A DNA stretch of 64,000 bases, taken from NCBI GenBank assembly GCA_009746045.1, contig RPFO01000059.1, positions 1,039,928 to 1,103,927 on the forward strand, written 5' to 3'. The position numbers were made by a program, and so were the translations under genes. Shown piece by piece: positions 2,460-63,352 of this stretch. The notes under the pieces were generated by a model, which made no database searches, was not told the origin of the DNA, and saw only the letters and a list, made by a program, of their open reading frames with translations. The first letter of the stretch is position 1. Each line of letters begins with the position of its first letter. This stretch comes from Mesostigma viride. Lineage: Eukaryota; Streptophyta; Mesostigmatophyceae; Mesostigmatales; Mesostigmataceae.

Positions 2460-3992
2460 AATTTGACACGGTCCTGAGTCTGGGAGGCTCGATCTTTGGG
2501 CCATCCTAGCTCTGGATCGCCGGGGTACCACCAGCGTTTATTGCTGCCATTCGTCAACTGTATTGAGGGCTCACAGGCAGGCAGTAGTGCGGACTGCGGA
2601 AGGCACCACCCCACCATTCCCTTTTCACCACGGGGTGTGGCAAGGTTGTGTCCTGTCCCCATATCTGTTCATTATTGTCGTGGATCGTGTCATGCGCCGG
2701 GCACGTGCGCGCTTTACTGCTCTTAAGGGGTTCGGGCCAGGCTTGGACATCCTTAACGAGCGCGAACACGGCGGCGGTGGCCCTGGCTACCGCCTGTCCG
2801 GCCTGATTTATGCGGATGATACCACCCTCATCGAGCGCCCCGAGCACATTCAGACCTGGCTGGACTGTCTGGGCTTGGAGGTGCGGGCGGTGGGGTTGGA
2901 GATTATAGTGTCAAAACTTCAATGCGATGGCGGATTGGGGCTACCAGTCGCCCGCCGCTGCCGCGGCTGCTATATAGGCGGGACGGAGGTCCCGTTCCGT
3001 GATCGCTTCAAACTGCTGGGGAGCACATGTGCTCGACCCGACACCGCCGACGATGTGGACGTCTGCATCGGCCTGGCCTGGGCTAGGCTTCGTTCGCTCA
3101 AAACCTACTGGCACTCGAAGGGCCTGGGCGAGCACCGCAAGCGCATGCTCTTCAAGGTCCTCGTCCTCACGGTGCCTACGTGTGGCGCCGAGGCATGGAC
3201 ACTCACGGACACACTGGCCGGCCGCCAAGCTAGACAGCACGGTTTACAGGATGCTTCGACAGTTCCTGAATGTAGGTTTTTCCACGCTTAGGTCATTAGA
3301 GTCTTTGTATCAGGGTATGCCTCGCGGCCCTCGCCGAGGCGTGGACAATCACCGGCACCCACACTGGCAGCTACGCTGCACGGCACGGTTTATAGGATGC
3401 TCCGACAGGTCCTGAACGTAGGGTTTTCCAAGCGCCCGTCATTAATTTTTTTAGTATTTGTATCAGGGTATGCCTCGTATTTCGGACGAGATATTAGGCA
3501 GCGTAGGATAGCCATTTGTAGGACACCTTGCTCGCACCAGCCAGGTCGACACCGCCCTTGGTCTGGCAGGCCCCCAGCGGCTTGGCCAGCCAGGGCAGCA
3601 TATTCTGACCTGGCCTGGCCCCAAGGGCATTCCCAAAAGGGTTGGGAAACATGTCACGAACTACATCCAGATGTTGCTGGACGACCTACGGACCTAGTGG
3701 TCCCAGCCCAGTTTGAACACCGCATCCACTCTCTCTCCCTTCTTTGGACTGCCATGCAGAACAAGACGCGGCGGCAGAAGATTTTCAAGGCTCACACGCC
3801 AGCCCCTGTGGGCAAGCCACCTCCCCCCAAGAGGCGGCGGCGTTTTGATGAGTAGTGTAGTTAGGATTTTTCTAGACTAGATAGCTTAGAGTTAGCTTAG
3901 TTCGATTCCGCGGCTTTGCCCACCTCCACCCATCCAGCAAGGAATATGTGCTACATGATCTCCCAACCCGGAGTCATGTTATATTAATTTTC
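2460..3992 (+). mobile_element. 5'-truncated non-LTR retrotransposon (LINE), RT-bearing copy
   Basis: The element begins within the palm of a LINE reverse transcriptase and ends with a 3' UTR. The UTR closes in a short hairpin (CTCC...GGAG at 3960-3973) followed by an AT-rich tail. ORF2 ends at 3855 with a basic Pro-rich tail (PVGKPPPPKRRRR), which resembles the end of the short copy at 63068-63352. A partly duplicated stretch (3237-3330 versus 3375-3475) and several frame changes show that the copy is dead. Overall order is RT palm, C-terminal region, 3' UTR, hairpin, tail. No convincing target-site duplication was found. Confidence 0.8.
2476..3855 (+). pseudogene. LINE reverse transcriptase fragment (ORF2, decayed)
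   Basis: The open part at 2563-3291 contains the LINE RT signatures GVWQGCVLSPYLF and YADDTTLIE (catalytic YADD at about 2809-2820). They are followed by the FKLLGS block, an AWARLRSLK block and the EAWTLTDTL motif typical of the region downstream of the palm. Upstream, about 2500-2560 encodes an in-frame-like GVPPAFIAAIRQ segment before a stop. Downstream the frame changes near 3290 and again around 3400, and the stop at 3853-3855 closes a basic C-terminus. The endonuclease domain and RT motifs 1-3 are missing. The arrangement fits the broad RTE/Jockey-like LINE group, but the clade cannot be fixed by eye. Confidence 0.8.
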
Positions 3993-4800
3993 GGGTAGTC
4001 TACGGGCATTCCGGTAGTCTAGATATACAGCTTCGATCTAGATCATATTTGACAAGATACACTGCTTCTGACTAGCATGCAAGCTTGCACTACAGGGCTT
4101 TTGTTGAAGCATTTGAAATCTTGGACATGCAAGTGCCTGGCATATGCAGGCACTGGGAAGGTCCCATATTCATGATAGCTGAGGCACCTCTATGTCCCAA
4201 GTGCTGCTCCAAAATTAATGTTTACGGGTTGATGGCCAGGGCATATAAAAAACACATTCATGGTTTAATATACTATACGTACTGTGACCTTGCAGCTCTT
4301 CTTTCGCTTGCATAATATAGAGACAACTATTCTGATCAGGCACTCCGCAAAGGTGAAAACCGTTTGCGTTCAGTGCCGGGCCGCGGAAAACGCGGAAAAA
4401 CGCGATCTGCAAATGAATCCGACCGGAATCGAACTGGGGACCTCTCGCACCAATTTTGCTGACTATAGGACGGACGTCTCCGGTTACCATGGCATCGCCA
4501 ACTTACACCTACAGTCATCCGCAAAAGTTCTCCTGTCCGGGGAGTGATGCAAGCCTTTTGGATTTGGTACTAGATAAATCCCTCGAGATCTGTGTGTAGG
4601 AGTACTACACACGTGTCTGCACGCGAGACTTGTTCAGTCTCGCACCGTGAGACGGGCTGAACACGGCTGAATCCTTCTATCTAGACAACTATGCCTGGAC
4701 GCATGGTGATCCAACGCCGTAGAAGGACTAGGGCTTCGCTTGCATAATACTAGCTCTGGCCTGTCGAAGTTAAGGTTTCATGAAGTTTTCATTTACACCA
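3993..4800. other. Spacer with dispersed-repeat pieces, no gene
   Basis: No supported coding exon. Around 4395-4475 the minus strand has a tRNA-like box B (AGTTCGATTCC), but no complete cloverleaf. At 4683-4705 the reverse complement of a 23-bp sequence recurs exactly at 63612-63634, so the segment belongs to a dispersed repeat. Confidence 0.5.
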
Positions 4801-13875: not shown

Positions 13876-14269
13876 GGCTGGCTGTAGCAACGATTAAAGC
13901 AGAAATAACGGTACTTCTGGCTTGACCCGGCCTGCCATCCTGAGCCACCAACTTTTTGCTGGAAAAGCTCTGTGAATGACCAGTCTGTTTGGCAGATCGA
14001 GGCGCCAGGAACTGAATGTACGTTGCTACGTGTATATACTGGTAATTTCCAGATTTCACCGGGCGCTGTACCAAGCTTGCCAGATCAGTTTTGATGGTAA
14101 GCAAAGCTGCAGCACTAGGCACTGGCCGGCATGCCGATTGCTGCACGTACCGGCCAGGGCTGGATCGCCATTACTGCCTTTTTGTATGTACCAAGCTCCA
14201 GTAGGCTATATGTATGTACATGATTTTTTCAATGCACGCATGTATTAAGTAAGGCGACTAAGACATGTA

Positions 14270-15003
14270 ATTAATTAATTAATTAATTAATAGACACGTG
14301 ACAGCGTCACGTGAGCATAAGTCCTCAGTGGGAGGGGAACATGGATGGGATGGAATGGATGGTGTAAGCTATCTAGGTCCTAGTTACAGGGGTGTGGGCA
14401 CCTCGGCCCGAATCGCTATGAATGCCATACGCGGTCACATGCACGCGGAGCCCCCACAGACTTGGGGGTGGTCTCCTTCATCACTACTTGCCATCTATCC
14501 ATGCGAACCATCTGCCTCCGTATTACAGACAAACCAGGAGGCTGCCCGGGTGTGAGCCCGTCACGTCTAGTGTAGCACATGTCCATGCCGAGTCTATCAC
14601 GAAAAGTCCACGGGTGGCGGCCCTGCCGCGCGCGGCCTGGGGCGCGCCAGGTGAGGACATATCGCCCAGGCTGGGCGGGCTTGGTGCCAGCTAGTCTATC
14701 TGATGTGTCTACCTGATCTGTGCGGGCCAGGTGCCTGGCTAGGCCCAGGCGCCTGTGCCTAATAATGTGGGAAACATAGGGCAAAGCAGCGTACAATTCC
14801 TCATGACTGATGTGCAAACCAAAGGGGATGTTAAGGGCCTTGCGCAGCATCTTGGTGACGTTGCCGTCGAGTCGTTGCTCCAGCTCCTGCGTCAGTGTCC
14901 AGGTCTCAGTGCCATAGGTCAGGATCGTCAGAATGACGACCGGCCTTGAAGAGGTCACGTTTGACGATCCGTGTACGTAGGGACTAGGGCGGGGTTGCTC
15001 AGA
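14270..15003 (-). mobile_element. 5'-truncated LINE with 11-bp target-site duplication
   Basis: The element is flanked by TAAGACATGTA at 14259-14269 and 15004-15014. On the minus strand it encodes the C-terminal part of a LINE ORF2 (open 14958-14416): TYGTETWTLTQELEQRLDG, then MLRKALNIPFGLHISHEELY, VSHIIRHRRLGLARHLAR and a Trp-containing end (RMDRWQVVMK). This is the usual post-palm region of RTE/CR1-like LINEs. The 3' UTR ends in the perfect hairpin CACGTGAC-GCT-GTCACGTG, followed by a (TTAA)n tail at 14270-14290. The copy is dead on arrival because RT is missing. Confidence 0.85.
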
Positions 15004-15014
15004 TAAGACATGTA

Positions 15015-16949: not shown

Positions 16950-19900
16950 TCAAGGGGTACCCTCGCCAGCGCCACCACCCTCCAGCAGCGCCAAGAGCTC
17001 GTCCACGTCGTCGCCAGCTGCCCCCCCCCCAGCCTGCCCCCACCCTTTCCCCCCCTCGGCGAGGAATATCAACTTCTGGACGCGGTCAATCGCGCCAGGG
17101 TGGCTCGCCCTGGCCAGCAGACACCCCCACCGCGACCAGTCGCGCCGCAGGTCGCACCCGCTGGCGTGCATGGCCAGCAGCTTCTGCGCGACGTCACTCA
17201 GCGCGGGCCAGCTGAAGCCCAGGCAGTTGAGCCAGAAGTTCCTCCGCTTGTGGATCTCGGGGAGGAGGGGGGGCGCGGCTGTGCTACAGGGGGGCACTGA
17301 GGGGGGAGAGGGGGAAGGGGCCAGGGCAGGGGACGCGGATGCGGATGGTAGCATCAACACGGCGCCAGGGAGGTTTGAGCCAGGGACCCCCTCGCCACAC
17401 TGGCTACCGTCACCGACCTGGGCAGCGCCAGCATGGGGGGACACCTCGCCGGCCATGCCAGGGGGTACCCCGATGGCAAGGGGCTGCGCCCTGGCGTTGC
17501 TGCTGCCGCCCGCACCCGCGCTAGCGCCACCGATGGTGCTGCTAGTGCTGCCCCCCACGGCGGTATTGCTGGTACCCGCGGCCGCACCGGCATCGCGTGC
17601 GGCAGCATCCCCGGTGAGCATGTCCAGCAGCCGGTTGTGTCCTTGGATGCTGTCCAGCTGCGCCAGGTGCAGCTCCTCCACCGCGTGCGCCCCCCCCAGC
17701 TGCCGCAGCGCATGTTCCGCGTCCGCTAGCCGCTGCTGGCGCAGCGAGGGCGTGGCGCCCAGGCCTCGGAAGGGCAGCAGGTACCCGCTCCCATCCGGGG
17801 TCTTGATGAAGTTGGACGGGTCCAGCAGGTACGCGGCCGCCATGACGGGCCGGTAGAGTGACCCGAAGAGGCGCGATTCGAACACACCGACCAAGGTCAC
17901 CGCCTGGCTGTCCCTGACGCTGGCGACGCCACGGTGGCCCTCCTCGCCCTCGAACCTGCTGTCGCTGGCACCGATGAGGTGATTTCTGGCGTTCATGTCA
18001 TCAAGACCCCTGCCATCCGTCACCGTGCCGCCGGCATCCACCTGCAACAACCCATCGTCATGCCCGCCCCTGCCACCTAGCCCACGTTTGTGCGCCCCCT
18101 CGCTCCCTCGGTCCTCCCCATCCCCCTCCACCCCTATACCTCCTTCCCTGCCTCTCTTCCCAAGAATAGACCCATCCCCGCCACCAGAGAGCACGTCCTC
18201 CCCCTCCGCAGACCGCACACCTCCGCCATCCCCCGTCCTGCCGGGTTCCTGCTCCCTCCTACCACCGTAACCCTCCTCGAACGCTGTCCCTCTGCTTGCA
18301 CACGCCCCGCGCTTGGGCCCCTTCTCCCCCCTCAGCAGCTGTGGGTGCTCCTCCCCAAACCGCCCCGCGTGCGCCACCAGCTTGTCCAGCAGGGGGAGCA
18401 TGCGCGACAGGTGGCACCTGTCCGCCGCCACCGTCTGCACCGCCTCCACCACGGGACCCGTGAGGGCCGCCAGCGCGTCAAGCCCCCGGAAGAAGCCGTC
18501 ACTGGGCGGTGCCCCCATCACTGCCTCCCGCAGCACAATCTCCCGCACCGCCTGCAGCGCCGCGTCGCCGGCGGCTGCGCGCGCCATGAACTCCTCCTCG
18601 GACACCCACCGCACGAGCGCGTGCTCACAAGACAGTAAGGCTAGGGCCGCGGCGTGCAAGGATGTGGTTGACAGCACGGGGGCGAGCGGGTCATAAGCAG
18701 GGAGCGGGTCCGCCCGCCCATTGCACTGACGCACGCAGGTCTCTAACAGCTCCCTCAGCGCGCGGCTGCAACCGCTGATGGCCTCGCACACCTTAGCGCA
18801 CTCGGCGCGCACCCTGGCCACCCAGGGGAAGCACTTTCCCAAGTCGCGCAGCAGCAAGGTCAGACCCTGGGCTGCACATCCCAGGTTCGTCAGCCCCGGG
18901 TCGCGCTCGGACAATGTGCGCATGGCTTGGGCGGTGGCGGCCGTGTTGTCTGTGACGTAGCCAGTAAAGTTGGCCTTGGTGGGCAGGGAATGTGCCACGT
19001 CAGCGCGCACGCGCTCGCAGCAGTCGGCGATCCACTGCGCATGCTTGCTGGCGCCGCTCGCCGTGACCACTTTCCAGAGAAGCGGCCTGCCAGTCGGGAA
19101 GAGCACCGTGAACGCGACAAGTGGCGCACCGCGCTCGGTCCGGCGCGGCTTCCACCCGTCACAGCTGATCATGTACCCCCCTGCCAGGTCGTGGAACTCA
19201 GACAGGGAGGACTGGCGCTCCGCGTCGTAGCACTCGTCCAACAGGTCGGTCACGAGACTTCTGGCGTCCGGGAGGGCGGTCCCCATGAGCGTGAAGGCCT
19301 GCCGTAGGTGCGGGTTGCTGAGGTGGCGGAGCGGCAGACCACTGGTGAAGAAGAACAGAGCCAGGCTACGGAGGGCTTGCTTGTGGGCGGCCTCCTGGGT
19401 AGTCGCCAAAAGCTGGCGCGCCTTGCTGGCCCCGCTAGCCGCTGCGGTCTTGAAGGGCGCGGGCAACGCGCCCGCCACGGGCTTGGACACGGCTTGGCTC
19501 GCCGAAGCGTTTGGCCGGCTAGGTGGAGATGCAGACGCCGCACCCAGGGGTGCCGCGCTGATGGAGCGGCCAGCTGGTGCGACGAAAAAGTCGGCAATGT
19601 CTTTGTCCTTGTCTTTTCGCTTCTCCAGGGCGTCCTTGCAGGCCCAAAGTCCGTTCTTTTGAAGCGTCAGGTGGGATAGGGCCGCTCGAGATGGGTTTGA
19701 CGGCCTCAGCAGACTCGGGCAAGATACGCACTTCATCCTAGCTTCCTCAAACGCTGGCTCGTCTGCCGTTGCAGGAATAACCACCGTAACGATGTCGAAA
19801 AGAGGCCACCAGGACGCGCGCCCGCTATTCGAGTGCTTCATCGAATTCAGCTTGGCCAGCGCCTCTTGGAGCGTGCACGACGTGCCATTAATTTTTTGCC

Positions 19901-20057
19901 TCCTAACAGGTCGCTGCTCATCGTTGCTTGTACGTGCAGGCAATGCGGGTTTGATGTTGGTATCGGGATTCATAGGGACAGTGTCAGGACCAGCTGCGGC
20001 ACGCATAGGAGCCGGATTCTTGTTTGGAAGGGACATTCCGAACAAATCTTTCCCCAA
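16950..20057 (-). CDS. hAT-superfamily transposase-like protein (BED-type zinc finger, DUF659-like core)
   Basis: A single uninterrupted frame of 1035 codons. At 110-140, C-x2-C...H...C gives a BED-type zinc finger. Residues ~220-300 resemble the hAT N-terminal helical part. The RNase-H-like core follows: YMISCDGWK (Asp300), PLVAFTVLFPTGRPLLWKVV, FTGYVTDNTA (Asp370) and LGCAAQGLTLLLRDLGK. Here canonical hAT proteins have C-x2-H, but this one has Gln397. Residues ~590-790 are a Gly/Arg/Asp-rich insertion. The end (FSWPALSDVAQKLLAMHASG, then DWSRWGCLL) corresponds to the hAT C-terminal dimerisation region, without the usual ER.FS signature. I found no terminal inverted repeats or 8-bp target duplications. 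It could be a domesticated gene or a decaying transposon that is still open. Confidence 0.8.
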   Translation of the reverse strand: MGKDLFGMSLPNKNPAPMRAAAGPDTVPMNPDTNIKPALPARTSNDEQRPVRRQKINGTSCTLQEALAKLNSMKHSNSGRASWWPLFDIVTVVIPATADEPAFEEARMKCVSCPSLLRPSNPSRAALSHLTLQKNGLWACKDALEKRKDKDKDIADFFVAPAGRSISAAPLGAASASPPSRPNASASQAVSKPVAGALPAPFKTAAASGASKARQLLATTQEAAHKQALRSLALFFFTSGLPLRHLSNPHLRQAFTLMGTALPDARSLVTDLLDECYDAERQSSLSEFHDLAGGYMISCDGWKPRRTERGAPLVAFTVLFPTGRPLLWKVVTASGASKHAQWIADCCERVRADVAHSLPTKANFTGYVTDNTAATAQAMRTLSERDPGLTNLGCAAQGLTLLLRDLGKCFPWVARVRAECAKVCEAISGCSRALRELLETCVRQCNGRADPLPAYDPLAPVLSTTSLHAAALALLSCEHALVRWVSEEEFMARAAAGDAALQAVREIVLREAVMGAPPSDGFFRGLDALAALTGPVVEAVQTVAADRCHLSRMLPLLDKLVAHAGRFGEEHPQLLRGEKGPKRGACASRGTAFEEGYGGRREQEPGRTGDGGGVRSAEGEDVLSGGGDGSILGKRGREGGIGVEGDGEDRGSEGAHKRGLGGRGGHDDGLLQVDAGGTVTDGRGLDDMNARNHLIGASDSRFEGEEGHRGVASVRDSQAVTLVGVFESRLFGSLYRPVMAAAYLLDPSNFIKTPDGSGYLLPFRGLGATPSLRQQRLADAEHALRQLGGAHAVEELHLAQLDSIQGHNRLLDMLTGDAAARDAGAAAGTSNTAVGGSTSSTIGGASAGAGGSSNARAQPLAIGVPPGMAGEVSPHAGAAQVGDGSQCGEGVPGSNLPGAVLMLPSASASPALAPSPSPPSVPPCSTAAPPLLPEIHKRRNFWLNCLGFSWPALSDVAQKLLAMHASGCDLRRDWSRWGCLLARASHPGAIDRVQKLIFLAEGGKGWGQAGGGAAGDDVDELLALLEGGGAGEGTP

Positions 20058-25800: not shown

Positions 25801-28800
25801 TTGCTGCTAGCGACCAGCGGTGACTTGTGTGGCTGACTTCTGGAGGAGCTTTTTCAGGGATGCGCATGTTTTGCCGTAGCCGGTTCGGCGTGTGCAGGAA
25901 AAGGAACAGAAGCATGGGCATGGGCCGTATCATGGTGGCATATAGAGGCTTTGCTGGCAATTACATATGACCCGTAAATATAGATAGTGTTGATCTATCG
26001 TCATACTACTATTACGGTGGAGCTTTGGAGGGCTTCGGCTTCCAACCAACCCAAGGCTTGAAAAGTGAAAGGGTCCCACCCCGTGGCTCGCATACAGGTG
26101 GCTGACACTCCTCAGCTCGCACACCTGGCATTTCCTGTTCCCTGTATCCTGTCCCCTGTTCCCTGTTCCCTGTTCCTGCCGCCTGACGCCTGACGCCTGA
26201 CGCCTGCTGCCTGCTGCCTGCTGCCCGCTGCCCGCCGCCTGCCGCCTGCCGCCTGCCGCCTGCCGCCTGCCGCCTGCCGCCTGCCGCCTGCCGCCTGCCG
26301 CCTGCCGCCTGCCGCCTGCCGCCTGCCGCCTGCCGCCTGCCGCCTGCCGCCTGCCGCCTGCCGTCTGCCGCCTGCCGCAGGTACAACAAATCGATGGGCC
26401 ACACGGAGTGGGTCACCTGCGTCTGCTACCTGCCCGACGGTCGCATACTCAGGTACGGCCCCACTGGCCGCTGAAGGCCCACCACCGTGCCATGTTCCAT
26501 CCTGAGGTACGGCCCCACTGGCCGCTGCCCTGATCGCCCCCCAGCAGGTGCTATCACTGTACCACGCTCCGGGCGCCTGGGTTGTGACCCTACATGTGTC
26601 TACTACGGGCCGAGGGGCCAGAATGGAAACGTGGGACGGGCAGCTTAGGTGTTTATGCTGCCGTCCCAACTTTGTGTGTCATTCAGGTGACAGTCTAGAC
26701 TTCGGGCTGACAGTCTAGACTTAGCGCTGGTGTGTTATTTCACTACACTGTACAGAACATGGGGTGTCTGGTGTGGTACCCGAAACCAAGCACATTGTAG
26801 TAAACACTGGATAGGGCGAGGGAAGGGAAGGGCCGCGTGATGGGTGGGCAGGGAAGGCATGCGCCGCGTGATGGGTGGGAAGGGAAGGCATGCCCCGCGT
26901 GATGGGTGGGAAGGGAAGGGATGCGCCGCGTGATGGGTGGGAAGGGAAGGCATGCGCCGCGTGATGGGTGGGAAGGGAAGGCATGCGCCGCGTGATGGGT
27001 GGGAAGGGAAGGCATGCGCCGCGTGATGGGTGGGAAGGGAAGGCATGCGCCGCGTGATGGGTGGGAAGGGAAGGCATGCGCCGCGTGATGGGTGGGAAGG
27101 GAAGGCATGCGCCGCGTGATGGGTGGGAAGGGAAGGCATGCGCCGCGTGATGGGTGGGAAGGGAAGGCATGCGCCGCGTGATGGGTGGGAAGGGAAGGCA
27201 TGCGCCGCGTGATGGGTGGGAAGGGAAGGCATGCGCCGCGTGATGGGTGGGAAGGGAAGGCATGCGCCGCGTGATGGGTGGGAAGGGAAGGCATGCGCCG
27301 CGTGATGGGTGGGAAGGGAAGGCATGCGCCGCGTGATGGGTGGGAAGGGAAGGGAAGGGCCGCGTGATGGGTGGGAAGGGAAGGCATGCGCCGCGTGATG
27401 GGTGGGAAGGGAAGGCATGCGCCGCATGATGGTTGGGAAGGGAAGGGATGCGTGATCGGATGCTGTCACCGCCCCCGGGCATGCGTGCTGCTGTGAAGTG
27501 CCTGGACAAGTACACACTGCCATGAAATGCCTAGTCCCTGTCACTATCACCGGAGCTTTTTTATACAGGAACCAGCTTAGGGGCTTGTTTCTCTCTGGGC
27601 TCCTGCTATCGACCGTAACCTGTGCTTCTCCCCCCCCGCCTCTCATCGGATCATCCTGTCATCATCTTTTTTATCGGCTCGTGTGCCCCCATCTGCCCAC
27701 CCTATGCCCCCAATGGGCCGCCTCCATGCCCTGATTTGCCCCTACCCATGCCCCCGTTTGCCCACCCCCATGCCCCGATTGGCCCACCCCGTGCCCCCGT
27801 TCGCCCACCCGCCAGCGGCGGCATGGACAGCAAGCTGTGCCTGTGGGACAAGGGTGTCGTTCGCTGCACGGACCTCAGGGGGCACAGGTGGGCGTGCATC
27901 ACCGCGGTCATCGAATGGCCTGCATCTCCGTGGTCATCGATCGGAACATCCCATTATATATATATATATGTTGTACATCCCATTATATATATTGTACATC
28001 CCATTAAATGTATTGTACATCCCATTATATGTATTGTACATCTCATCATATGTATTGTATAGGTCACCCTGTCGGGGCTAACTTCTAGAGGAGAAGTTGG
28101 GAGTATGCCAACCTTGGGTATCATATGCCCAAGGTTCTTGGGATAAAGTCAACAAAGCCAATGAGCACGGGCTGAGCTTTGCTCTGGTTCCTCTCTGGCA
28201 GTCTGTCAAACCTTCTCGATTCTGTTTACCTTGTATAAATCCCTGCACCCTAACAGTCTGTTGATTACCCCTGTCTGGGTTTCCTACTTGCGATTGGCAA
28301 CACCTCCTGTGGACGGAGCCATGAAAAGCCAAGCATTTGTTGCTTGTTGAGGGCTTCGTCCAGCAGCGGTACCCGGTGCGCTCACTGTTTTGCGATGCGG
28401 TGACATCCTAGAGACCTTTCAGTACACTTTGCCTTGTTTTGAGATTTAGTTGATCTGTGTGCCGGCAAGGTGCCCTCTTACCCTCTCTCCATCAGCAGGC
28501 AAGGGGACACCGGTCTGCCACCCCTCCCTTCTTTCCCTTTTCCTCGTGCTCGCACCTGCCCCCCTGTCCATTGTTTCAGCACGTCAGGACGCAACTTTTA
28601 GAACCTTCTTACCCTGCATCCCTTCCTATCCGGGCGCACGACCCTCACTGACCCACTCTCCGGTCCGCTCTACCCCTGGCCCACACTGCAGTGGGTCTGT
28701 TTCAGCCGTCGCCTCGGGGGCCTCGGGGGAGCTGGCGGTGAGCTGCTCGTACGACAAGACGCTGCGGCTGTGGAATGTGGGGCGCAAGCCCTACCGGGAG

Positions 28801-36509: not shown

Positions 36510-36675
36510 GGGAAAAGAGGAAAGCGTTTGTATGGCCAATTTCGCTGTGGGGAGAATCGAGCTTTGTATTATTTGCTACGGCTAAATTGTTAATGTGTGA
36601 AATTTCAAGCTCTGGGAGGCTCACCAATGATGCATGAACAAGTGATGAATTGAATTGAATTGAATTGAAACTTAA

Positions 36676-36860
36676 CATAACTCCGTTGGGAGTATATGTA
36701 GCACATAGCCCTTGAGAAGGGGCATATGGCCTATAGTACATTCTAAGCTACTAGCTTCCTGCAAGGGTGGGAATGTAAACGACACTTGCTCTAGGTGACC
36801 CAGGGCACCTGCAGCCCCATGATCTATCAAGCGGTGATCTAACAAGTGGTGATCCCCTCA
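36676..36860 (-). mobile_element. ORF1-element/LINE 3' end, hairpin-type A
   Basis: On the minus strand, about 170 bp closely match the 3' UTR of the complete ORF1-only element at 60679-62648, ending with ATACTCCCAACGGAGTTATG. The tail here is an (AATTC)n-like run at 36645-36670. Upstream, the sequence is lost or replaced. Confidence 0.75.
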
Positions 36861-37383: not shown

Positions 37384-37440
37384 TATTAATTAATTAATTA
37401 ATAAGCACGTGACTGCGTCAAGTGGGTGCCAATATACAGA
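37384..37440 (-). mobile_element. LINE 3' end, hairpin-type B (degenerate)
   Basis: The minus strand reads CACTTGAC-GCA-GTCACGTG followed by a (TTAA)n tail (37385-37400). This is the same terminal hairpin as the element at 14270-15003, with one unpaired position. The 5' limit is unclear and may reach about 37700. Confidence 0.6.
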
Positions 37441-37795
37441 GTAAAGGAACCTTCAACCCTACATACACAGCGAGAAGAGGGAGGGCGCCCTGCTTCTCTC
37501 ACTGCCGCAAGTGGGCAGGCCACAGAGCGCTCTCTCCACAGCATGGTGCATGCCGGGGCGCACCACTGTGGGTGCAATACAACCGGTGCAATACCATAGG
37601 TAGGCTGACGCATAGCTTATGCTACAAATGTGAGGTGGGCTGAAGACGTCGGCTAAGGCGCAAGCTGATGACCACAAGGTGCCAGAGCTAATTGAAGGTA
37701 CTATAACGCTGTGCGCTAATATCATTTCAAGTGCTGTAATGCCTAAGCTATCCCATAATCGATTGCCCCCATCTAGACAACTAGCTTCAGGAGTG

Positions 37796-38180
37796 CTCTA
37801 TCCCGGGGGAGCCCGGGGGGGCTTCCACAGTTTCTTGTTGACAGAAAGGTCCCCGCCCTGCCAGTACACTTGGGGCTTCTCGGGGTTGGTCTTGTGGCGG
37901 ATGTAGTCGGGCCACTGATCGCGGCGTTGCTGCTGCTGGGCTGGCGTCAGGTCGTCGTCAAGCGACCAGGAGGTGTTCACCAGACTCTTGCGGCGAGAGA
38001 GGAACCGAACTCGGGCTGCCGATGTCGCTGAAGGTAAGGACCACTGCAGGGGGCCCAGCCTTGGCCCGTGGATGGGGCAGGCGGTAGGCGCCCTGCAGTG
38101 TCGCACCTGGCAGCGCCATGCACGCCAAAAGTTTATTCAGATCAGCCAATGTATCTGGGCGTCCTAACCTCAAGTAACTC
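37796..38180 (-). pseudogene. ORF1 C-terminal fragment of an ORF1-type retroelement
   Basis: Two minus frames give the ORF1 C-terminal domain: PHPRAKAGPPAVVLTFSDIG, then VRFLSRRKSLVNTSWSLDDD, LTPAQQQQRRDQWPDYIR and QVYWQGGDLSVNKKLWKPP. This lines up with the end of the intact 458-aa ORF1 at 61126-62502, with a frameshift near 38030. It is a third, older relic of the family. Confidence 0.75.
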
Positions 38181-38505
38181 ACTTAATTAAACTCGTGCTC
38201 CCGTTGGCTAGTCACGGAGCACCGGAGTGCTTTCAATCCCTGCATGTGCACAACAGCTGAAGAAAGGGCAGAGACCCCCTTTCTCCTCCATGCCAGAGGC
38301 ATGCCACAGTAGCAATCAGACACGATATCAGTACGATCCGGCAAGTTCTGCTGTGGGTGCAGTAAGACCCATGTGAGCATATCATGTACGTAACAATGAG
38401 CGCGGTGGGCAAGCATAACCTGCCTGATCAAGCGTGGTCAAGTAACCTAGGATGAGCGTGGTGGAAGTGACTTAACTCGGGGATGACTGTAGCTCTAATA
38501 ACTCT

Positions 38506-40887
38506 ATCGTTCGTTCGTTCGTTCGTTCGTTCGTTCGTTCGTTCGTTCGTTCGTTCGTTCGTTCGTTCGTTCGTTCGTTCGTTCGTTCGTTCGTTCGTTC
38601 GTTCGTTCGTTCGTTCGTTCGTTCGTTCGTTCGTTCGTTCGTTCGTTCGTTCGTTCGTTCGTTCGTTCGTTCGTTCGTTCGTTCGTTCGTTTCGTTCGTT
38701 CGTTCGTTCGTTCGTTCGTTCGTTCGTTCGTTCGTTCGTTCGTTCGTTCGTTCGTTCGTTCGTTCGTTCGTTCGTTCGTTCGTTCGTTCGTTCGTTCGTT
38801 CGTTCGTTCGTTCGTTCGTTCGTTCGTTCGTTCGTTCGTTCGTTCGTTCGTTCGTTCGTTCGTTCGTTCGTTCGTTCGTTCGTTCGTTCGTTCGTTCGTT
38901 CGTTCGTTCGTTCGTTCGTTCGTTCGTTCGTTCGTTCGTTCGTTCGTTCGTTCGTTCGTTCGTTCGTTCGTTCGTTCGTTCGTTCGTTCGTTCGTTCGTT
39001 CGTTCGTTCGTTCGTTCGTTCGTTCGTTCGTTCGTTCGTTCGTTCGTTCGTTCGTTCGTTCGTTCGTTCGTTCGTTCGTTCGTTCGTTCGTTCGTTCGTT
39101 CGTTCGTTCGTTCGTTCGTTCGTTCGTTCGTTCGTTCGTTCGTTCGTTCGTTCGTTCGTTCGTTCGTTCGTTCGTTCGTTCGTTCGTTCGTTCGTTCGTT
39201 CGTTCGTTCGTTCGTTCGTTCGTTCGTTCGTTCGTTCGTTCGTTCGTTCGTTCGTTCGTTCGTTCGTTCGTTCGTTCGTTCGTTCGTTCGTTCGTTCGTT
39301 CGTTCGTTCGTTCGTTCGTTCGTTCGTTCGTTCGTTCGTTCGTTCGTTCGTTCGTTCGTTTCGTTCGTTCGTTCGTTCGTTCGTTCGTTCGTTCGTTCGT
39401 TCGTTCGTTCGTTCGTTCGTTCGTTCGTTCGTTCGTTCGTTCGTTCGTTCGTTCGTTCGTTCGTTCGTTCGTTCGTTCGTTCGTTCGTTCGTTCGTTCGT
39501 TCGTTCGTTCGTTCGTTCGTTCGTTCGTTCGTTCGTTCGTTCGTTCGTTCGTTCGTTCGTTCGTTCGTTCGTTCGTTCGTTCGTTCGTTCGTTCGTTCGT
39601 TCGTTCGTTCGTTCGTTCGTTCGTTCGTTCGTTCGTTCGTTCGTTCGTTCGTTCGTTCGTTCGTTCGTTCGTTCGTTCGTTCGTTCGTTCGTTCGTTCGT
39701 TCGTTCGTTCGTTCGTTCGTTCGTTCGTTCGTTCGTTCGTTCGTTCGTTCGTTCGTTCGTTCGTTCGTTCGTTCGTTCGTTCGTTCGTTCGTTCGTTCGT
39801 TCGTTCGTTCGTTCGTTCGTTCGTTCGTTCGTTCGTTCGTTCGTTCGTTCGTTCGTTCGTTCGTTCGTTCGTTCGTTCGTTCGTTCGTTCGTTCGTTCGT
39901 TCGTTCGTTCGTTCGTTCGTTCGTTCGTTCGTTCGTTCGTTCGTTCGTTCGTTCGTTCGTTCGTTCGTTCGTTCGTTCGTTCGTTCGTTCGTTCGTTCGT
40001 TCGTTCGTTCGTTCGTTCGTTCGTTCGTTCGTTCGTTCGTTCGTTCGTTCGTTCGTTCGTTCGTTCGTTCGTTCGTTCGTTCGTTCGTTCGTTCGTTCGT
40101 TCGTTCGTTCGTTCGTTCGTTCGTTCGTTCGTTCGTTCGTTCGTTCGTTCGTTCGTTCGTTCGTTCGTTCGTTCGTTCGTTCGTTCGTTCGTTCGTTCGT
40201 TCGTTCGTTCGTTCGTTCGTTCGTTCGTTCGTTCGTTCGTTCGTTCGTTCGTTCGTTCGTTCGTTCGTTCGTTCGTTCGTTCGTTCGTTCGTTCGTTCGT
40301 TCGTTCGTTCGTTCGTTCGTTCGTTCGTTCGTTCGTTCGTTCGTTCGTTCGTTCGTTCGTTCGTTCGTTCGTTCGTTCGTTCGTTCGTTCGTTCGTTCGT
40401 TCGTTCGTTCGTTCGTTCGTTCGTTCGTTCGTTCGTTCGTTCGTTCGTTCGTTCGTTCGTTCGTTCGTTCGTTCGTTCGTTCGTTCGTTCGTTCGTTCGT
40501 TCGTTCGTTCGTTCGTTCGTTCGTTCGTTCGTTCGTTCGTTCGTTCGTTCGTTCGTTCGTTCGTTCGTTCGTTCGTTCGTTCGTTCGTTCGTTCGTTCGT
40601 TCGTTCGTTCGTTCGTTCGTTCGTTCGTTCGTTCGTTCGTTCGTTCGTTCGTTCGTTCGTTCGTTCGTTCGTTCGTTCGTTCGTTCGTTCGTTCGTTCGT
40701 TCGTTCGTTCGTTCGTTCGTTCGTTCGTTCGTTCGTTCGTTCGTTCGTTCGTTCGTTCGTTCGTTCGTTCGTTCGTTCGTTCGTTCGTTCGTTCGTTCGG
40801 TCGTCGGTCGTTCGTTCGTTCGTTCGTTCGTTCGTTCGGTCGGTCGGTCGGTCGGTCGTTCGTTCGTTCGTTCGTTCGTTCGTTCGT
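38506..40887 (+). repeat. Giant tetranucleotide microsatellite (TTCG)n, about 2.4 kb
   Basis: About 590 TTCG units. Only two phase slips (extra T near 38690 and 39360) and a few GTCGG variants interrupt it, at 40797-40857. The ORFs of over 800 codons on both strands (Val-Arg-Ser-Phe and Thr-Asn-Glu-Arg) only reflect the absence of stops in the repeat. Confidence 0.98.
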
Positions 40888-40969
40888 AAACAGCTAGTGT
40901 TCTTGATCCCGTGGCCGTAGCCCGGCCCGGGGACTTCCACAGTATGAATCGATGGCGCATCTGGTAGCT

Positions 40970-60058: not shown

Positions 60059-60444
60059 ACTTGAGCTAGACTTGTCGGAATGACCTGTGTTAAGGGTGGC
60101 TGCCACGACGTGATGCAAAGGGAGGGGCAGGGGGACGATGGGGAAGGTAGTAGTGATGATGAGAATGATGTTGATGATATTCCTTGCCTTGCATGTGCGT
60201 CCCCGGATGAAATTGACGGTGTCCCTTTCCTGCTGTGCAGCACATTCGGGTGCAAGGGAGGACTGCATGGGTGCTGCGCTGACCCCCCGTTGACTAAGGA
60301 GCCCAAGGGGGATTGGTTTTGCCCTGCCTGCCTTGTGCAGGATGCTAACAAGGGCTGATATAGTGACATTTTCTGTTTTAGCGGGCATTTTTCTGAAAAC
60401 ACGTCTGACGCAATAACTTGAGCTAGACTTGTCGGAATGACCTG
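60059..60444 (+). repeat. 29-bp perfect direct repeat bracketing the PHD-finger ORF
   Basis: ACTTGAGCTAGACTTGTCGG + AATGACCTG occurs at 60059-60087 and again at 60416-60444, 357 bp apart. The second half of the left copy overlaps the ATG of the PHD ORF. Confidence 0.9.
60080..60358 (+). CDS. Stand-alone PHD zinc-finger protein (92 aa)
   Basis: A single-exon frame. It has an acidic N-terminal part (DDGEGSSDDENDVDDIP), then a C4-H-C3 PHD finger: CLAC, LLCSTFGC, GGLHGCC and GDWFCPAC. The Trp two residues before the last Cys pair is a PHD hallmark. PHD fingers read histone H3 tails in chromatin proteins, but they also occur in the ORF1 proteins of some non-LTR retrotransposons. A bare PHD of this size, surrounded by retroelements and bracketed by a direct repeat, could be an exon of a larger gene, a retro-copied fragment or an accessory transposon protein. 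Spacing is C-x2-C-x13-C-x4-C-x4-H-x2-C. Confidence 0.65.
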   Translation: MTCVKGGCHDVMQREGQGDDGEGSSDDENDVDDIPCLACASPDEIDGVPFLLCSTFGCKGGLHGCCADPPLTKEPKGDWFCPACLVQDANKG

Positions 60445-60666: not shown

Positions 60667-60678
60667 AATAAGTGCATT
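60667..60678. repeat. Target-site duplication, left copy
   Basis: AATAAGTGCATT directly abuts the (TTAA)n tail of the ORF1-only element. The same 12 bp stand at 62649-62660, at the element's 5' end. Confidence 0.9.
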
Positions 60679-62648
60679 AATTAATTAATTAATTAATTAG
60701 GAACATAACTCCGTTGGGAGTATATGTAGCACCTAGCCCTGAGAAGGGGCATATGAGCCTATAATACATTCTAAGCTACTTCCTGCAAGGGTGGGAATGT
60801 AAACAACACTTGCTCTAGGTGCACCAGGGCACCCGCACCCTCATGGTCTATCACGCTATGCCCGGGTAAGGGGGGAGCATGCCTGTGAGGGGGAAGATCA
60901 TCATGGCTATACAAGAGCTATGGCATGGCTTCTCAGCAGAGAGTGACTCCCTGCATGGGCACAACATTACTAAATAAGGCTAGGCATCGTCTGGAGTGTG
61001 GCACATCATAGGCACACATGTACATGACTAAAAAGGCTAGGCCTCAGCTGGTATAGTGCCTGTAGTACGTAGGCGGGCATGTACAAGGCCACTGTCTAAC
61101 TATTCTACACTACTGCTGTATTCCCCTAGGCTGGGGCTGGAGTCGCTGGGGCCGCGGTGGTCGAGGGGGTCGCTTGCCAGGGCTTGTGGCCGACGTAGAT
61201 GGCCGCCCCCTTCCAGTACACCGGCTGGCCCGCCTTGGTCTGCCGGAGCTGGAGGTAGGTCGGCCATAGCTCCCGTCGTCGTTGTTGCTGTGCCAGGGTC
61301 AAGTCGTCGTCAAGGGTGAAGAGAGTCTTCTCGAGCCGCTTGCGGCGTCTGAGAAAAGAAATCTTGTCCGCCGGGGTCTTAAAGGTGAGAAGGAGCGGGG
61401 GCGGCCCTGCCTTACCCCGCGCGCGGGGAAGGCGGTGGGCAGCCAGCTCGATCTCACCGTTAAGGCCCATGCGACCAAGGATTTCTCTCTCAAACGCACG
61501 CAAAAGCTTCTCGGAATTCTCACCTTCCTCCATCTTGAGATTCTTGACAATGACGTTGAGGCTGCGCTTGGCGAGCTCGGCCTCCTCGCGGAGGTCAAGC
61601 GTCTGCCGCTGGAGCTGGGCTGCGACGGCGGAGGTGGTGGAGGTGGTATGTTGCTTAAGCATGTCCGCCCAGGTCGTGATGGGAGGAGCATCGCCGGCCA
61701 GGCCAGCCGGGGCTGGCTTGGCGGCAATGTCCTTCACTGCCTGGGCGGTGAGGCCTGCTGTGTTCTGCAAGACCTCGATAGCGATTGCATTATCCTTGAG
61801 GCGCTGGTCGATGTCGCGGAGCTGGGCGGTGATGGAGTCGGTGGAGACGGAGGGGGGGGGGGTGGAGGCGAGGAGGGTGGCGGTGGCGGTGGGGATGGTG
61901 GGGAGCTCAGCAGCCAGCGTGCCGCCAAGTGCCGCCACATCTGCGGCAAGAGGGGTCACGTGCTGCTCGAAAGCTTCCTTGAGGAGGGTGCGGATGGAGG
62001 CTTCGGAGGGGAAGGGGGGCGGTTTGGGAGCCCAGATCTCGGATTCGGAGCGTCCAACAAGGGAGCAGAGGGCGAAGCGTTGAAGCTTGGGGCGAGGCAT
62101 GCGGTGAAGGATGGGGAGAGCCTCGGCGGGGTCGACAAGCTTGCCGTCACCAGGCCAGCGGCCACGGTTGTGGGACGTGAGGTACACGCACATGGCTAGA
62201 AGCGAGGCGTGATTGCCGTAAAACAAGTCTTCCATGAACCAAGTGGGGCGGCGTTGCCAGAAGCCGGAGCTGTTGACGTCAAAGGAGGTCTCTTCCCAGG
62301 GCGGCTCAGAAGAGCGACTGCGCTTGGGTTCAGGCGAGGCAGATGGCGAGGCAAGCCCGGGGGGCTGGGCGAGCACTAGAGCTTGGCTAGTGGCGCCGCT
62401 GCCTTCTGGGCCGGTTGGCGAAGCTGCAGCCGGGGCTGCAGACGTATTTTCATTGCTAAGCGCAGCCGCCAGGCTGCGTTGCGTCGAGAGGCGTTTGCTC
62501 ATCGTATATTGCGTAATAGCGTCGGAAAATTATATCAGCATGTGCGTCTTAGAAAGACGAAGCGATTGTGATATTCACAGCTGAATTCGGCGCTCAAACG
62601 TGAAAGTTATGAGCTCCGACAGCCATGGCTACCTCGTGGCTCGTGGCT
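60679..62648 (-). mobile_element. Complete ORF1-only non-LTR retroelement, copy 2 (1970 bp)
   Basis: The element is bounded by 12-bp target-site duplications (60667-60678 and 62649-62660). In minus-strand order it has a ~145-bp 5' UTR, an intact ORF1 (62502-61126) and a ~430-bp 3' UTR. It then closes with the hairpin ACTCC-CAAC-GGAGT and a (TTAA)n tail at 60679-60699. There is no trace of endonuclease or reverse transcriptase between ORF1 and the 3' UTR. It therefore inserted as an ORF1-only unit and must have used another element's RT. This parallels mammalian HAL1 (half-a-LINE). Confidence 0.88.
61126..62502 (-). CDS. L1-type ORF1 protein (458 aa), intact
   Basis: ATG at 62502. The N-terminus is Ser/Ala/Pro-rich (to ~90), followed by a conserved WFMEDLFYGNHASLLAMCVY segment and GRSESEIWAPKPP. 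The central helical, coiled-coil-prone part has ITAQLRDIDQRLKDNAIAIE and QTLDLREEAELAKRS. NVIVKNLKMEEGE, typical of the RRM start, comes next. The C-terminal domain (AHRLPRARGKAGPPPLLLTF, KISFLRRRKRLEKTLF, LDDDLTLAQQQRRRELWPTY, GQPVYWKGAAIYV) matches the layout of L1 ORF1p: R-rich linker, DDDLT and RRELWP. Such proteins bind element RNA and act as nucleic-acid chaperones. Copy 1 (56597-57943) and the relic at 37796-38180 are relatives. Confidence 0.85.
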   Translation of the reverse strand: MSKRLSTQRSLAAALSNENTSAAPAAASPTGPEGSGATSQALVLAQPPGLASPSASPEPKRSRSSEPPWEETSFDVNSSGFWQRRPTWFMEDLFYGNHASLLAMCVYLTSHNRGRWPGDGKLVDPAEALPILHRMPRPKLQRFALCSLVGRSESEIWAPKPPPFPSEASIRTLLKEAFEQHVTPLAADVAALGGTLAAELPTIPTATATLLASTPPPSVSTDSITAQLRDIDQRLKDNAIAIEVLQNTAGLTAQAVKDIAAKPAPAGLAGDAPPITTWADMLKQHTTSTTSAVAAQLQRQTLDLREEAELAKRSLNVIVKNLKMEEGENSEKLLRAFEREILGRMGLNGEIELAAHRLPRARGKAGPPPLLLTFKTPADKISFLRRRKRLEKTLFTLDDDLTLAQQQRRRELWPTYLQLRQTKAGQPVYWKGAAIYVGHKPWQATPSTTAAPATPAPA

Positions 62649-62660
62649 AATAAGTGCATT
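62649..62660. repeat. Target-site duplication, right copy
   Basis: AATAAGTGCATT, partner of 60667-60678, immediately beyond the 5' end of the element. Confidence 0.9.
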
Positions 62661-62854: not shown

Positions 62855-63058
62855 GGGGTGCCACCTCCCCTTAAGGAGCCGCATGAACCATCATGGTGGT
62901 GCAGGTGCACCTTGTGCACCCAGAGCAGGTGATAGTTGTACATCCTCCACCTGCGTTGTAGCCCTGATTGTATTACAAACCCATAGATGCCCCTTTCTCA
63001 GGGCTATGTGTTACATATGCTCCCAACGGAGCTATGATTTTAATTAATTAATTAATTA
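62855..63058 (+). mobile_element. Short LINE/ORF1-element 3' end, hairpin-type A
   Basis: About 190 bp of 3' UTR are related to that of the ORF1-only element (GGTGCACCTTGTGCACCCAG region, then GCCCCTTTCTCAGGGCTATG). The sequence ends GCTCC-CAAC-GGAGC and a (TTAA)n tail at 63036-63058. The 5' end is truncated. Confidence 0.8.
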
Positions 63059-63067
63059 ATGATTTGG

Positions 63068-63352
63068 AAGAAGATGATGGACAAGGCCAAGTGGGCCCAG
63101 GTCATAGAGGACAACGAGCCCCCCCCAGTGGGGAAGCGCCCGCATGTGCAATCCCGTGGGAGGCACGCCAGACAGCTCCCCTAGGGCAGCGGCTGTCTAG
63201 ATAGATGTTGTAGTTAGAACGCTGTTAGCTAGATTTAGTATGAGCTGATGTAGATAGATTAGACCGGTAGGACTGTTTGCACCCATCCATCCATCGGGGT
63301 TAATGCTCCGTGACTCCCCAACGGGAGCACGAGTCTAATTAATTAATTAAAT
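63068..63352 (+). mobile_element. Short LINE copy: ORF2 C-terminus plus 3' end
   Basis: Begins in frame with KKMMDKAKWAQVIEDNEPPP and VGKRPHVQSRGRHARQLP, TAG at 63182-63184. The PVGK.P motif parallels the end of ORF2 at 3855. A 3' UTR follows, with the terminal hairpin CTCCC-CAAC-GGGAG (63311-63324) and a (TTAA)n-type tail at 63334-63352. Confidence 0.75.

Follow-up and report, generated by a model that had tools for sequence, protein, structure and literature searches.

A complete ORF1-only non-LTR retrotransposon and its relatives in Mesostigma viride

ORF1-only derivatives of LINEs are already known, as HAL1 in mammals and, in another form, as HeT-A at Drosophila telomeres. HAL1 is a non-autonomous L1 derivative that encodes ORF1p alone and has had several origins in mammals (PMC5753468). 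HeT-A is a telomeric non-LTR element with a Gag/ORF1 gene that lacks a reverse transcriptase (RT) and relies on the enzyme of another element (PMC5537684). A third point of comparison is the Chlamydomonas pair SINEX-3_CR and L1-1_CR, a SINE and a LINE with a common 3′ end, and recognition of the 3′ end by the LINE enzyme has been proposed for stringent LINE/SINE pairs (PMC3747384). A literature search on ORF1-only LINEs outside mammals, algae and plants included, contained no such report among the matches listed.

Here we describe an ORF1-only element, A, in a 64-kb stretch of the Mesostigma viride genome (64,000 nucleotides; hereafter, the window). The window sits in a 440-Mb assembly of 2243 contigs. 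HAL1 had been named as the parallel in a preliminary description of this DNA, and the layout agrees: A has a 5′ UTR, an ORF1, a 3′ UTR and a tail, and it encodes no ORF2. HAL1 ends in poly(A), whereas A/B-type elements end in (TTAA)n or (CAATT)n. The elements described here also differ from HAL1 in having a 3′ hairpin in common with LINEs, in comprising several branches whose 3′ ends resemble those of different LINEs, in occupying a different genome and in carrying an ORF1 that stands apart from both LINE ORF1s that we read. We conclude that A probably works like HAL1 but do not class it as a HAL1 member, the match of its ORF1 to the human ORF1p RRM being weak. Like HeT-A, A is a non-LTR element with an ORF1 and no RT; unlike HeT-A, its copies lie inside megabase contigs, in both orientations and with target-site duplications (TSDs), and no link to telomeres was seen. 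It resembles the SINE of a SINE/LINE pair in being non-autonomous with a 3′ end like that of a LINE in the same genome, but SINEs have no protein gene, whereas these elements keep an ORF1 of ~458–494 aa under purifying selection.

Element A and other ORF1-only copies in the window

A is a complete ORF1-only element (Table 1). The preliminary description had it inserted as a complete unit between perfect 12-bp TSDs, and we located both copies: AATAAGTGCATT occurs at only two sites in the 64-kb window, each exactly abutting A. Identity over 12 bp at a spacing of ~1970 bp arose in 27 of 20,000 random placements within the same repeat-rich window. The intact 458-aa ORF1, both UTRs, the terminal hairpin and the (TTAA)n tail reported earlier could all be placed by coordinate. 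The reported lack of ORF2 holds as well, as tblastn with RT and endonuclease sequences of a LINE from the same genome gave matches elsewhere in the window but none within A. A appears to have been recently mobile. A short stem (CGTCTT/AAGACG; fold z −1.9) is predicted in the A 5′ UTR, and next to the 3′ flank of the element lies a short open frame that encodes a PHD finger (60065–60358; E 2.8e-6).

B had been presented as a second, decayed copy with the ORF1-to-3′ UTR structure of A. The junction is indeed the same, the ORF1 stop passing into the 3′ UTR as in A, but the 3′ end of B is incomplete, with ~150 bp missing. The 5′ UTRs of A and B are 92% identical over 125 bp, whereas their ORF1s are only ~74% identical. 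Three further copies, C, E and F, lie in the window, C belonging to a second ORF1-only family.

Table 1. Coordinates of ORF1-only elements, their parts and LINE sequences in the window
Feature	Position	Strand	Description
A, complete ORF1-only non-LTR retrotransposon	60679..62648	-	TSDs, 5′ UTR, ORF1, 3′ UTR, hairpin, tail
A TSD AATAAGTGCATT, tail-side copy	60667..60678		12 bp, perfect
A TSD AATAAGTGCATT, 5′-end-side copy	62649..62660		12 bp, perfect
A 5′ UTR	62503..62648	-	CCACGAG heptamers at its start
A ORF1	61126..62502	-	458 aa + stop; ATG at 62502; stop 61128-61126
A 3′ UTR	60700..61125	-	426 bp; immediately follows ORF1 stop
A terminal hairpin	60703..60727	-	
A tail	60679..60699	-	(TTAA)n
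B, older decayed ORF1-only copy	56475..~58215	+	Frameshifted ORF1; ORF1/3′ UTR junction as in A; 3′ end incomplete
C, 5′-truncated copy of second ORF1-only family	37387..38143	-	ORF1 C-terminus with one frameshift, stop, 3′ UTR, hairpin, (TTAA)n tail
C terminal hairpin	37406..37424	-	Resembles that of LINE2
E, 3′ end of A/B-type element	36650..36832	-	(CAATT)n tail
F, 3′ end of A-type element	62892..63060	+	(TTAA)n tail
LINE1, ORF2 fragment	2467..3993	+	RVT_1 (E 1.6e-8), short 3′ UTR, A-like hairpin 3953-3979
LINE2, 5′-truncated	14268..15014	-	ORF2 C-terminus, hairpin 14295-14313, (TTAA)n tail
LINE3, likely ORF2 C-terminal remnant	63060..63350	+	Third hairpin type, TTAA-rich tail; read by eye

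Family size and the ORF1/3′ UTR junction

The proposal that A and B represent a family rather than a single deletion is borne out by the number of copies and by their shared ORF1/3′ UTR junction. A 35-base tag from the A 5′ UTR has 768 copies in the genome at up to two mismatches, against 0 for a reversed control (the tag counts of 768, 510 and 3277 are not mutually comparable, as the tags differ in conservation). In a DNA search with A, 37 of the 40 scored matches, the window copy included and drawn from 7345 candidates, span at least 1890 bases at 94–100% identity. Across 28 fetched A loci, the match begins at base 1 in 26, at base 2 in one and at base 48 in one. Exact TSDs of 10–14 bp lie beside the tail in 19 of these loci; 8-bp duplications, which could be due to chance, occur in two more, and the remaining seven (L004, L010, L013, L014, L015, L017 and L027) show no convincing duplication. 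The same duplication flanks both L005 and L008, which may be a single locus assembled twice. In 27 of 28 loci the copy starts with a short array of CCACGAG heptamers that varies from copy to copy, and this variability places the 5′ duplication a little upstream of base 1 in many loci. The genome thus holds many TSD-bounded copies of ~2 kb with the same junction, a pattern named beforehand as support for a family.

We located ORF1 ends with a DNA tag taken from the C-terminal part of ORF1, in a sample that is not random because most loci were chosen by similarity to A. Where at least 250 bp of downstream sequence was present, 58 of 62 ORF1 ends run into an A-type 3′ UTR, and ORF2 follows ORF1 in 0 of the 62. 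By eye, the other four (L036, L038, L047 and L050) start in the same way after the stop and are then diverged or interrupted. In a set of 64 ORF1-clade copies, each followed by 350 bp or more of sequence, 56 enter an A-type 3′ UTR within 60 bp, and B and C from the window are among the other eight; a LINE1-type endonuclease start within 1.5 kb is absent from all 64. We read the RT matches that flank some loci as separate insertions. The pattern named beforehand as refuting a family, with ORF2 between ORF1 and the 3′ UTR in all other copies and with different junctions in A and B, was not seen in the copies examined.

In a search with a full-length C relative from L033 (89 scored of 18,624 candidates), 40 of the rows listed have the same stop-free frame of 487 aa. 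In a search with the window copy of C (2675 candidates), 39 of 40 scored matches, one of them the window itself, start no later than query base 18 and extend to base 771, the tail end, and the last covers 21–764. Of the 39 C matches outside the window, 17 overlap an ORF1 match of the search with the L033 relative. Thus the C family, like that of A, passes from ORF1 directly into its 3′ UTR and tail, and the family is young.

We also recorded where subfamily-A copies have landed. Judged by the 120 bp that follow the tail, 15 of the 28 insertions (L001–L028) are located within or next to some other LINE or ORF1-only element; the control figures were 120 of 1000 for random 120-mers from the window and 407 of 1000 for a second control taken from element-chosen loci. 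L003 sits within a LINE1 hairpin.

ORF1 protein type and selection

The label of L1-type ORF1, given in the preliminary description, is less firm. A ORF1 is similar to the ORF1 that precedes ORF2 in LINE2 of the same genome (pairwise E 8e-6; 9e-6 for C ORF1), and the ORF1s of A and C match each other at a pairwise E of 2e-45. Likeness to known proteins is less clear. Neither Pfam nor PDB sequence searches returned a relative of ORF1, and viral-contig scans found none; one Rfam search gave 0 matches and another gave three below threshold, which we read as chance. Two low-confidence models of ORF1 (pLDDT 47.7 and 47.6) consist of helices followed by a β-α-β-β-α unit. When these weak models were compared by Foldseek, the RRM of human LINE-1 ORF1p (2w7a) appeared at rank 13 (probability 0.99, E 0.02), below ribosomal protein S6 and others, and there was no match at E 0.001.

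Between A and B, dN/dS is 0.425 over 427 codons (bootstrap 0.33–0.55) at a dS of ~0.7, whereas the minimum in 1000 neutral simulations was 0.616. Among 23 stop-free ORF1s, median dN/dS is 0.5–0.56 at dS 0.03–0.6 (3 of the 253 pairs fall in no listed dS bin) and 0.88 for the nine closest pairs. The ratio for A and B and the medians of 0.5–0.56, values well below 1 of the kind named beforehand as support, indicate that ORF1 is under moderate purifying selection. Because A and B have their junction in common, their ancestor already lacked ORF2 at this position.

The further suggestion that ORF1 is needed in cis is unproven. ORF1 is unbroken in only 4 of 28 subfamily-A copies, so that perhaps not every copy needs it, though in 21 of the 24 broken frames an indel falls within or next to a C-run. 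C-run length differs even between copies that are otherwise 99.95–100% identical (for example, L021 and L016–L018), and these differences may be assembly error or real slippage.

Two-ORF LINEs, mode of copying and origin

ORF2-bearing LINEs that could act as partners, which the preliminary description had proposed looking for, are present as two families, LINE1 and LINE2, each with ORF1 and ORF2 and with 3′ hairpins similar to those of the ORF1-only elements. The local alignment score of the A and LINE1 hairpins is 39, whereas 18,834 random draws reached at most 31, and that of the C and LINE2 hairpins is 28, whereas 18,727 draws reached at most 24, both pairs having been picked after looking. 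The crossed pairs do not match (A–LINE2, 14; C–LINE1, 12). The A/LINE1 stem was compared in 14 distinct forms of 25 bases each, a set without exact repeats and without the LINE1 hairpin forms of 27 letters. Pairing is kept in 98.4% of cells; one pair is found as GC, GU, AU, UG and CG, and seven of the nine pairs never vary. The sequence common to the 3′ ends of A and LINE1 is confined to the last 40-odd bases. Tails of A/B-type elements are of the two kinds given above, whereas LINE1 copies mostly end in (TTTAA)n, and because of this difference LINE1 as sampled may not be the exact partner of A. C and LINE2 agree in both hairpin and tail.

LINE2 looks active. Five scored copies have an open ORF2 frame of 1222 aa (150 scored of 18,691 candidates), and just upstream of one of these frames, at L060, the ORF1 stop overlaps the ORF2 start as ATGA. 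This ORF1–ORF2 junction has 40 scored matches (412 candidates), all of them printing 100% identity, and the junction stretch lies upstream of the open ORF2 in four of the five copies. An 11-bp repeat of the 3′ flank marks the start of the LINE2 copy in the window. In LINE1, ORF1 sequence lies ahead of ORF2 and was read with one frameshift in L061. We rejected a LINE1 that lacks ORF1, with ORF1 and ORF2 on separate elements, since L060 and L061 with L059 show ORF1 ahead of ORF2. We likewise rejected the common start of 20 matches, at query base 595, as the LINE1 5′ end, the query upstream of it being foreign flank. A third hairpin type (GTGCTCC...GGGAGCAC) with TTAA tails occurs at two ends, 63060–63350 and 38190–38400, and suggests a further LINE family.

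Because the RNA ends of the ORF1-only families resemble those of complete LINEs, A probably borrows a LINE enzyme. Our preferred reading, which we regard as very probable, is that A is a non-autonomous LINE-derived element that codes only for an L1-like ORF1 and is copied in trans by way of a LINE-type 3′ hairpin. A promoter in the 5′ UTR of A would drive synthesis of its RNA, and translation of that RNA would yield ORF1 protein, which may act on the same RNA. The RT of a two-ORF LINE would then recognize the 3′ hairpin, LINE1-like in the A and B branches and LINE2-like in the C branch, and copy the RNA in trans into a nicked target by target-primed reverse transcription; insertion would leave the short-repeat tail and the TSD.

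Internal deletions of LINEs are generally known to happen, and A and B might be unrelated random products of them with no ORF1-only family behind them. The junction common to A and B led us to reject independent deletions, and hundreds of copies with that junction and a fixed 5′ end leave such an origin with virtually no probability. Scarcely more credible is that the copies are retrocopies of a host ORF1 gene that came from a LINE: mammals do have such a domesticated gene, L1TD1, but the copies found here have in common a fixed, heptamer-bearing 5′ end, a hairpin and tails of short repeats, and they fall into several diverged families. The ORF1-only elements could also supply ORF1 protein to LINE RNAs, in a mutual dependence like that proposed for HeT-A and TART. 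ORF1 is intact in many near-identical C copies and in a group at 80% identity, which would suit such cooperation, and HeT-A Gag is described as required for TART targeting (PMC5537684); LINE1 and LINE2 have ORF1 sequence of their own, however, and so need no supply, which makes cooperation improbable.

The origin of the lineage allows two readings. A direct parent may persist, namely a two-ORF LINE with an ORF1 of the A or C clade, in which case the ORF1-only copies would be fairly recent internal deletions that are still copied in trans. LINE ORF1 was read in two families only, LINE1 and LINE2, and 92 of 22,423 ORF1 candidates were scored, so that such a parent has some room; yet no ORF2 follows ORF1 in the sampled copies or the scored C matches, the ORF1s of A, B and C group apart from those of LINE1 and LINE2, and A and B share a junction despite their dS. 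We consider a surviving parent unlikely. In a tree of 23 RRM-CTD ORF1 rows, the 21 ORF1-only rows split from both LINE ORF1s at 98/98, in a topology with no outgroup, with long LINE branches and with a LINE1 row pieced from two copies. Taken at face value, A, B and C would be a single ORF1-only lineage, with hairpins of different LINE types at the ends of its branches. We entertain, tentatively, an old lineage that has diversified in the absence of ORF2 and has switched partners, with A/B and C coming from one ORF1-only ancestor and bearing the hairpins of two LINE families. If this is true, ORF1-only elements would be the gag-carrying equivalent of SINEs: they would retain an RNA-binding protein of their own but exchange the 3′ end that gains them an RT.

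The set of A, B, C, LINE1 and LINE2 separates ORF1 ancestry from 3′-end type. It also raises the question of why ORF1 is retained if the enzyme is borrowed, and whether ORF1 protein serves its own RNA or any RNA with the right 3′ end. With a young C family carrying intact ORF1 and a young two-ORF LINE2 in one genome, matched in hairpin and tail, this open question would be testable.

Three other features of the window were noted. A tandem array with a period of ~62 bp occupies 26819–27459, and a long tetranucleotide array at 38428–40893 has open frames of ~800 aa on both strands. An open frame of 1035 aa at 16950–20057 has a sub-threshold match to DUF659 (E 2.8e-6), a link from which we take it to be, perhaps, a hAT-type transposase.
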